34,575 bases of DNA from positions 1 to 34,575 of the forward strand of contig CABYSN010000010.1 in assembly GCA_902521645.1 (NCBI GenBank), read 5' to 3'. The first letter of the stretch is position 1. Every line of letters starts with the position of its first letter. Shown in pieces: positions 32,767 to 34,531 of this stretch. A program made the position numbers and the translations under genes. The DNA comes from Planctomycetota bacterium. GTDB lineage: Bacteria > Planctomycetota > Phycisphaerae > Phycisphaerales > SM1A02. The notes under the pieces are model-generated. The model was given only the letters and a program-made list of their open reading frames with translations, searched no databases and was not told the origin of the DNA.

Positions 32767-33120
32767 ATGGTGGAAAGAAAAGGGTGTTCTCGTCGATTTC
32801 CTTTGATGATGACTCATCGTTCACTGATCACTCCGCTTGCCTCCGTCCTGGGACTCTCAGGGTTCATGGTGGCACTTTCCGCGGGTGCTTTTTCAGGAAA
32901 TACACTCGACAGCGTTCTGGAACGGGCTTTGGTGAGCTCATTTCTGTGTTTTCTCGCTGGGGGGGCCATGGGGTTGATTCTCGATGGTGTTCTTGAACGA
33001 CATGCGCAGAAATTGCGCATCGAGCAGGCGGACGATGGCAACCCAGAGCAGAATCTCACTTCCGAAGAGGCGATCGTGACTTCGTCAGACAATGAGTCTC
33101 CGACCCAGGCTGTGGCCTGA
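32767..33120 (+). CDS. Small membrane protein between flhG and fliA, unknown function
   Basis: A 117-residue protein. A basic N-terminus (about 1-18) precedes two hydrophobic segments, about residues 20-42 (SLITPLASVLGLSGFMVALSAG) and about 52-72 (LVSSFLCFLAGGAMGLIL). A charged, acidic C-terminal tail (about 75-117) follows. I recognise no family. Position between the flagellar regulators flhG and fliA, on the same strand with a 48-bp gap, suggests a flagellar or motility role. The start could be the ATG at 32767 or ATGs at 32806/32809. No strong ribosome site precedes any of them. Confidence 0.65.
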   Translation: MVERKGCSRRFPLMMTHRSLITPLASVLGLSGFMVALSAGAFSGNTLDSVLERALVSSFLCFLAGGAMGLILDGVLERHAQKLRIEQADDGNPEQNLTSEEAIVTSSDNESPTQAVA

Positions 33121-33143
33121 GTTCGACATTGGGCTGACCGTGC

Positions 33144-33158
33144 GCTTGTGGAACAAGC
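33144..33158. promoter_or_regulatory. Inverted repeat overlapping the -35 of the fliA promoter, possible operator
   Basis: GCTTGT-GGA-ACAAGC is a perfect 6-bp inverted repeat lying across the TTGTGG hexamer. A dimeric regulator bound here would touch RNA polymerase directly. It is upstream of the start site, so it would not be in the transcript made from this promoter. Confidence 0.4.
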
Positions 33159-33175
33159 AGTGTGTCCCCTATAAT
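33146..33175 (+). promoter_or_regulatory. Predicted sigma70 promoter of fliA
   Basis: TTGTGG (33146-33151), an 18-bp spacer and a perfect TATAAT (33170-33175). Transcription would start near 33182, giving a leader of about 325 nt before the fliA ATG at 33506. An internal housekeeping promoter lets fliA be expressed apart from the upstream export genes. Confidence 0.65.
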
Positions 33176-33187
33176 CCTCCTGTCCTG

Positions 33188-33503
33188 GGTCAAGGAACGA
33201 CCATGGACATGCAGGACCGGTGTTCTACGCTGGTTCATCAATTCACACCGGGTACGCCCGGAATCGAACGGACTCGATTTTCATGATTGACTCGATCTTC
33301 ATGCACATTTTTGTCGAACGCGAAATGACTCGCGTTTCGATCGATGTGTCATGCTCGAGTTTCATGGACTCTGGAATCCCCGAGGGATCCCGCCGACTCC
33401 AGCTCGTGTGAATGGTTGAACCCGCCTAGAAAGCGTACGCCGGTCGACATCTCGAACAGGTGGGACTCTTCGGTCTCATCATGGCAAGGTCAAGGAGCGG
33501 ACC
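33188..33503 (+). promoter_or_regulatory. Structured fliA 5' leader with paired GGTCAAGGA hairpins
   Basis: Near the predicted start site, GGTC-AAGGAAC-GACC (33188-33202) forms a hairpin. At the ribosome site, GGTC-AAGGAGCG-GACC (33488-33503) forms its twin, with AAGGAG as Shine-Dalgarno in the loop. AAGGA fits the ANGGA consensus of CsrA sites. Between them are CCGGG-TACG-CCCGG (33248-33261) and a 9-bp bulged stem CGAACGCGA/TCGCGTTTCG (33315-33339). There is also a possible stem around ATCCC-CGA-GGGAT near 33377-33389. Confidence 0.5.
33271..33303 (+). repeat. 15-bp direct repeat in the fliA leader
   Basis: GACTCGATTTTCATG (33271-33285) and GACTCGATCTTCATG (33289-33303) differ at one base with an 18-bp period. 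A weaker third copy, GCTCGAGTTTCATG, is at 33353-33366. Each copy ends in ATG, but no ribosome site precedes them. Confidence 0.6.
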
Positions 33504-33505
33504 GC

Positions 33506-34531
33506 ATGGCGAATTCAACGACGACGAGCAAGACGCAGAAGAGCGTCAAGAGCAAGACGAAAACCAGGGAGAAGACGACGGCCTCAGGGCGAAAGTCCAC
33601 CAAGAAGACGGTGGAAATCGTCGAGTTGACCGAGGTCGCACAGGAGGTTCAGGTCACGGAAGCCGGTGCCGAAGAGGCCTCTGCCGAAGCCAAGCCCAAG
33701 CGGCGCTCGCGCCGTGCGTGTCGACGCGAAGTGACCAGTGACTACACCGAAGACCAGCTTCGTGAGATCGAAGCCGAGCAGGGTATGGAGAATCTCTGGC
33801 ATCTCTACCGTGAGTACGGTTGTGAAACCATGAGAAACTTCCTCGTGAAGAAGTACCACGACATCGTGAAGTACACGGCGGAGCGCATGCACATGCGACT
33901 TCCCAACGAGGTCGAGGTCGAGGATCTGATGTCAGCCGGTCTGTTCGGTCTCATGGATGCGATCGAAGCCTTCGACACCGAACGGGGTGTCAAGTTCGAG
34001 ACCTACTGCGGCACCCGCATCAAGGGCGCCATCTTCGATGAGCTCCGGCACATGGACTGGGTCCCACGACTGGTTCGTGCTCGCAGTTCCAAGGTCGACC
34101 AGGCACGGCGCACCATCGAGATGCGTACCGGATCGAAGGCCTCGGATGAACAGATCTCCGCGCACATGCAGCTCGACAGTTCCGAATACAAGAAGGTCAT
34201 TCGTGATTCACAGCCGGTCGGCGTCGTGAGTCTGACCCGGAAGTGGTTCGAAACCGATTCCAGCAAGGACGTCCGTGAGATCGATGTGATCAAGGACCAC
34301 CGTCAGGAGAATCCCCTCAACACGGTTCAGCGCCAGGATCTTCAGAATCTGATCACCAAGGGCCTCACGCGAGCCGAACGACTCATCGTCATCCTCTACT
34401 ACTACGAGGAGATGACCATGAAGGAGATCGGTCTGACGCTTGACCTCTCCGAGAGTCGCGTGAGCCAGATGCACTCCTCGATCCTGGCCCGACTGAAGGC
34501 TCAGATGCAGCATCGAGAGAAGGAATTCTGA
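33506..34531 (+). CDS. fliA: Flagellar RNA polymerase sigma factor FliA (sigma28) with long N-terminal extension
   Basis: A 341-residue group 3 sigma factor. Region 2 contains the family pattern LPNEVEVEDLMSAGLFGLMDAIEAFD followed by FETYCGTRIKGAIFDELRHMDWVPR, which is diagnostic for FliA/WhiG. Region 3 follows, and region 4 is LTRAERLIVILYYYEEMTMKEIG with the helix-turn-helix LSESRVSQMHSSI. FliA transcribes late flagellar genes. E. coli FliA is 239 residues; here about 95 extra residues precede the sigma core. They are lysine/serine/threonine-rich first, then acidic, then an arginine cluster (KPKRRSRRACRR). The ATG at 33506 is supported by AAGGAG eight bases upstream; more upstream in-frame starts lack one. 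Confidence 0.95.
   Translation: MANSTTTSKTQKSVKSKTKTREKTTASGRKSTKKTVEIVELTEVAQEVQVTEAGAEEASAEAKPKRRSRRACRREVTSDYTEDQLREIEAEQGMENLWHLYREYGCETMRNFLVKKYHDIVKYTAERMHMRLPNEVEVEDLMSAGLFGLMDAIEAFDTERGVKFETYCGTRIKGAIFDELRHMDWVPRLVRARSSKVDQARRTIEMRTGSKASDEQISAHMQLDSSEYKKVIRDSQPVGVVSLTRKWFETDSSKDVREIDVIKDHRQENPLNTVQRQDLQNLITKGLTRAERLIVILYYYEEMTMKEIGLTLDLSESRVSQMHSSILARLKAQMQHREKEF

Follow-up and report, generated by a model that had tools for sequence, protein, structure and literature searches.

Conserved twin ANGGA hairpins suggest a CsrA-binding leader on the flagellar sigma factor gene fliA of Planctomycetota

The window, by which we mean the whole stretch of 34,575 nt that was analysed, is a contig of a 54%-complete, 1.39 Mb planctomycete assembly. 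It carries fliO, fliP, flhB, flhA, flhF, a flhG/MinD-like gene and a 117-aa frame, followed by fliA (33506..34531, + strand). The product of fliA is a 341-aa sigma factor of the FliA/WhiG family that matches TIGR02479 above the cut-off and has orthologues in relatives. Its ATG lies at 33506, and the preceding 117-aa frame stops at 33120. A longer in-frame start, the ATG at 33344, was rejected because of the conserved ribosome site at 33506 and the non-triplet indels found upstream within the genus. The 117-aa frame (32767-33120), located between the flhG-like gene and fliA, has two apparent membrane spans and gave no match in Pfam or NCBIfam. Its features agree with those published for the FlgV family, whose members have two TM helices, lie next to sigma-28 and are reported in Phycisphaerae (PMC11607428).

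Upstream of fliA, a perfect −10 box, TATAAT, is found at 33170..33175 (+ strand) and is kept as TATAAT or TATACT in five members of the genus. The −35 sequence (TTGTGG) is poor, and a promoter scan did not report this predicted promoter. Transcription is predicted to start near 33182, which would give a leader of ∼324 nt. In the 46 loci of relatives where it could be determined, the AnGGA of the first hairpin followed the −10 box at a spacing of 16 to 29 nt, with 22 nt the commonest value (21/46). Since this spacing predominates even though leader length varies several-fold among the genomes, it supports a start near 33182. A first-pass annotation of the window had placed a transcript start about 325 nt before fliA on the strength of a perfect TATAAT; the box and the spacing bear this out, with the qualification that the −35 sequence is poor and the start is a prediction. 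Just upstream of TATAAT lies a perfect palindrome, GCTTGTGGAACAAGC (33143-33157), nearly invariant in the five genus members, which is a possible operator over the −35 region.

The leader is bounded by two hairpins. Hairpin I, GTCC-TG-GGTC(AAGGAAC)GACC-AT-GGAC (33182..33208, + strand), lies at the predicted 5′ end and is supported by sequence, by folding and by covariation in 29 relatives; given a start at ∼33182, it would begin with the first nucleotide of the transcript. Its inner part, GGTC-AAGGAAC-GACC, spans 33188-33202, and its outer stem pairs GTCC (33182-33185) with GGAC (33205-33208), replaced by GTCT/AGAC in two relatives (L005 and L067). The AAGGA of its loop (33192..33196, + strand) is putative CsrA site 1; the A, the GG and the final A are invariant in an alignment of 29 sequences. 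Hairpin II, GGTC(AAGGAGCG)GACC (33488..33503, + strand), covers the fliA Shine-Dalgarno, and GTCARGGAG is present at the ribosome site in 81 of 97 non-redundant fliA loci. Its AAGGAG (33492-33497, + strand), on the Shine-Dalgarno itself, is putative CsrA site 2 by sequence. A third hairpin, AATCGA(ACGGAC)TCGATT (33262..33279, + strand), also with an ANGGA loop, is conserved in five genus members, and the 5′ hairpin TCGA(AnGGAn)TCGA of L012 and L016 resembles it in sequence. There are further stems, e.g. CCGGG/CCCGG at 33248-33261. Between hairpins I and II, the minimum-energy fold and a five-genome consensus fold show a long-range structured insert of the genus (33215..33445, + strand), closed by GACCGG/CCGGTC; it is branched, and the few two-sided changes in the consensus fold lend it weak support. 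The entire leader folds better than shuffled sequences (z −3.2), with both hairpins I and II in the minimum-energy structure; in one relative with a short leader, the two hairpins were absent from that structure. The first-pass annotation had described the twin GGTC-GACC hairpins, the second on the Shine-Dalgarno, and clear stems between them. All of these were found, with the amendments that hairpin I is longer by its outer stem and that the leader holds three ANGGA hairpins.

We determined how readily such a leader arises by chance, which had been raised as a caution because GGA is common. For the repeated 9-mer GGTCAAGGA the caution was right: 21.7% of shuffles hold a repeated 9-mer, and the repeat was rejected as evidence when taken alone. 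GTCANGGANNNGAC occurs seven times in the window genome, and only the fliA copy directly precedes a long gene. The ANGGA hairpins themselves were rarely matched. In 2000 dinucleotide shuffles, with a hairpin counted at a stem score of at least 4, the mean number was 0.15 versus three in the window leader; three were reached in 0.15% of the shuffles, and an ANGGA hairpin at each end of the leader in none.

The comparison was extended to relatives. All 61 relative genomes gave a fliA match (in G031 only a weak sigma-factor match), as did 80 named loci. Loci with any 45-mer of coding sequence in common were removed as redundant, which left 97 fliA loci from Phycisphaerales and allies. Of these, 89 carry an ANGGA hairpin with a stem score of at least 3 at the fliA ribosome site. 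Among other genes of these loci, 4/116 have an ANGGA hairpin at their ribosome site with a stem score of at least 4. A 5′ ANGGA hairpin behind a −10-like box was detected in 46/97 loci, every one of which also has the ribosome-site hairpin. By this promoter-anchored rule about half of the 97 loci are without the 5′ hairpin, and 31 have no recognisable −10 box. This comparison is decisive for the reality of the twin hairpins. A covariance model was built for the short form of the twin leader and used to search 37 genomes; the top matches were fliA leaders and one fliA paralogue (G008), and the remaining matches were weak. The element is not phylum-wide: it was not seen in any readable FliA locus from other orders and classes, several of which have no clear start. 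Divergent fliA paralogues (L084, L086 and L087, from G033, G008 and G035) have leaders with ANGGA twin hairpins or similar sites.

To examine hairpin I as an RNA structure, sites were first chosen by ANGGA behind a −10-like box, without regard to pairing. A stem score of at least 5 was found for 51% of these promoter-anchored sites versus 5% of 694 ANGGA sites elsewhere. Swapping the 3′ arms between genomes lowered the mean stem score from 5.4 to 3.0, and the observed value was reached in none of 10,000 swaps. For covariation we aligned 29 sites with seven-base loops, selected by the AnGGA motif and some of them added on the basis of pairing. In this alignment 91% of cells are paired and 5/6 pairs change on both sides; there are 43 two-sided changes versus 12 in shuffles, and the covariation score was reached in 0/500 shuffles. 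Sliding the register reduced pairing to 25-51%. A hairpin scan behind the −10 box that ignored the motif recovered mostly GGA loops. The stem of hairpin II is almost invariant and consequently shows little covariation. Conservation and covariation of the stems, the check that the first-pass annotation had asked for, thus gave stems that are kept and a hairpin I that covaries. The hairpin I loop is AnGGA, with A, C, T or G as second base and U (T) next in 21/32 sites. In sequence it is close to the CsrA SELEX consensus RUACARGGAUGU (PMC7652899) and unlike the Shine-Dalgarno AAGGAG. A fixed loop between arms that are free to change but compensated therefore points to recognition of single-stranded loop bases in RNA, and these sequence patterns indicate an RNA-protein site in hairpin I rather than a DNA operator or a spare Shine-Dalgarno.

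A candidate binder is encoded in these genomes. csrA was found in 60/61 relatives, the sole exception being 74% complete, and fliW in 55/61. A search of the window genome for both genes, also proposed in the first pass, located fliW (55542), csrA (56050) and flagellin (56443) adjacent to one another on contig C1. Most relatives have two kinds of csrA: one, CsrA1, is encoded next to fliW and flagellin, and the other, CsrA2, is more divergent. The window assembly, which is incomplete, shows only CsrA1, a protein of 102 aa with L4 and R44 kept and a long C-terminal tail. The leader thus has ANGGA in a hairpin loop, a site on the Shine-Dalgarno and, in the same genome, a csrA with L4 and R44; the layout of a FliW-CsrA circuit, with fliW, csrA and flagellin together and a C-terminal extension on CsrA, is present as well. 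The flagellin genes of the same order provide an internal positive control: their ribosome sites lie in hairpins, e.g. CAATC(AAGGAG)GATTG and GTGTTC(AGGGA)GGACAC, which resemble the CsrA sites on Bacillus and Campylobacter flagellin mRNAs (PMC7652899, PMC4894983). The csrA1 ribosome site is itself in AGTTCC(AAGGAA)GGAGCT (L001, about 1480-1500) and, in L272, in GTTCC(AGGGAA)GGAGC, which suggests autoregulation of csrA1.

We estimate a probability of about 83% that the fliA leader is a CsrA-binding 5′ untranslated region controlling translation of the flagellar sigma factor. The first-pass annotation had proposed translational control through this leader by CsrA or another regulator. Stem conservation, covariation and the presence of csrA with fliW all support a leader of the CsrA type, from which we infer CsrA binding and regulation. 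In the proposed mechanism, a CsrA dimer would grip the 5′ hairpin, bridge to the ribosome-site hairpin and block ribosomes; repression, as opposed to activation, is suggested because a site sits on the Shine-Dalgarno. Once flagellin is exported, FliW would be free to take away CsrA (CsrA1) and fliA would be translated, so that repression is probably relieved by FliW. A backlog of flagellin would silence fliA and flagellin at once. By binding at the extreme 5′ terminus, CsrA may in addition influence mRNA decay, as it does on E. coli flhDC.

In the chief rival explanation, CsrA, possibly CsrA2, would bind the same leader mainly to protect the mRNA from decay at its 5′ end, and would activate fliA in the manner of E. 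coli flhDC. Such a role would suit the location of hairpin I at the predicted start of the transcript, its AnGGA most often 22 nt after the −10 box, and CsrA does stabilise flhDC near its 5′ end (PMC7652899). It would also accommodate four genomes (G005, G009, G020 and G030) that have no FlhA, fliW or CsrA1, and no flagellin where this was tested, and that keep sigma-28, CsrA2, the ribosome-site hairpin and an upstream GGA hairpin. The upstream loops of G009 are AGGAT and AGGAC after C or T, and so are not strict ANGGA. However, the second site on the Shine-Dalgarno, present in nearly all of the non-redundant loci, favours repression, whereas the flhDC sites are near the 5′ end, and we regard protection as the main role as unlikely.

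Two further explanations dispense with CsrA. Every Shine-Dalgarno has a GGA, and 5′ hairpins stabilise mRNA. The hairpins could thus be purely structural, a 5′-end stabiliser and a structured ribosome site whose GGA reflects chance, a Shine-Dalgarno or a decoy Shine-Dalgarno. The window has a possible small reading frame that starts at 33203, behind hairpin I, and would agree with this explanation, but this frame was rejected as a target served by hairpin I since it is not conserved, its ATG being absent in L005 and L067. The AnGGA loop, mostly followed by T rather than reading AAGGAG, stays constant while the stems vary, and such hairpins are rare on the ribosome sites of other genes. We consider a structural role by itself improbable. 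Alternatively, the inverted repeats could be DNA operators for a transcription factor, and hairpin I is indeed an inverted repeat adjoining the promoter. Its arms vary with compensation while its centre is fixed, the reverse of the operator pattern, and the other copy of the repeat covers the ribosome site at a distance of up to 300 bp. This explanation is strongly disfavoured, the least probable of those considered.

The arrangement has precedents on other genes. The flaA leader of Campylobacter jejuni is short, with two stem-loops bearing ANGGA loops, the second on the ribosome site, and compensatory changes (PMC4894983). This CsrA-FliW leader has the same architecture as the planctomycete twin hairpins, but its target is flagellin rather than a sigma factor, and it was demonstrated by coIP, footprinting and mutants while the fliA leader is known from sequence. 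The Bacillus subtilis hag leader likewise has two CsrA sites, one on the Shine-Dalgarno, with FliW as antagonist (PMC7652899), and differs in that its target is flagellin. A hairpin site bridged to a Shine-Dalgarno site, as in the fliA leader, is found on a different gene, glgC, in E. coli (PMC7652899). E. coli flhDC shares a site near the 5′ end, where CsrA blocks RNase E (PMC7652899), and differs in gene and in being activated. The E. coli fliA mRNA is a direct CsrA ligand by CLIP-seq and gel shift with RNA from −30 to +165, and the available portion of that report does not describe a conserved twin-hairpin leader (PMC5694010). The first-pass annotation knew of no such element for planctomycete fliA, and we agree: Rfam 15 gave no family match, only two chance-level matches far below gathering scores, and the literature searched describes no CsrA target for Planctomycetota. 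The planctomycete leader would bring not just flagellin but also the flagellar sigma factor under CsrA-FliW, and this CsrA-type fliA leader is backed by covariation across many genera. FlgM-like genes were found in 28/37 genomes, with matches in G005 (weak), G009 and G020, and a CsrA-FliW leader would be a second control on sigma-28 beside FlgM. The leader persists in the four genomes that lack fliW and CsrA1, so its retention does not depend on FliW, and control by FliW is not its sole role; in species without flagella the same leader must serve another purpose, and CsrA2 may bind it. A broader proposal, which we offer tentatively and as the less probable outcome, is that across the order CsrA gates sigma-28 translation as a second checkpoint beside FlgM, through which the sigma factor is tied, via FliW, to the state of export. 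By the same proposal, lineages that have lost flagella along with FliW and CsrA1 would retain the sigma factor, its leader and CsrA2 as a CsrA-sigma module with a non-flagellar function.

With two GGA loops, two CsrA proteins and FliW the model is testable, and relatives provide natural variation in spacing. In the 46 loci with both hairpins, these are 24 to 300 nt apart, 24-115 nt in most relatives and 300 nt in the window genus. In many relatives 24-75 nt separate the GGA sites, and a small stem (GGCT...AGCC) of weak statistical support often occupies the spacer. Bridging by one CsrA dimer has been measured at spacings of 10-63 nt (PMC7652899), a range that the linear 300 nt of the window exceeds; 19/46 loci fall at 24-63 nt and 27/46 exceed 63 nt, which counts against the CsrA model, although 10-63 nt is not a strict requirement. 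Leaders are typically short, and the window genus has enlarged its own to about 324 nt; there the structured insert may, according to the fold, bring the distant sites together. The long structured leader of the first-pass annotation accordingly applies to the window genus and some relatives; what the order shares is the twin hairpin, often in a short leader. In a side group (L145, L182, L195 and L197) the hairpin at the ribosome site reads CCC(AAGGAnC)GGG; here the 3′ arm, not the loop, contains the Shine-Dalgarno GGGAG.
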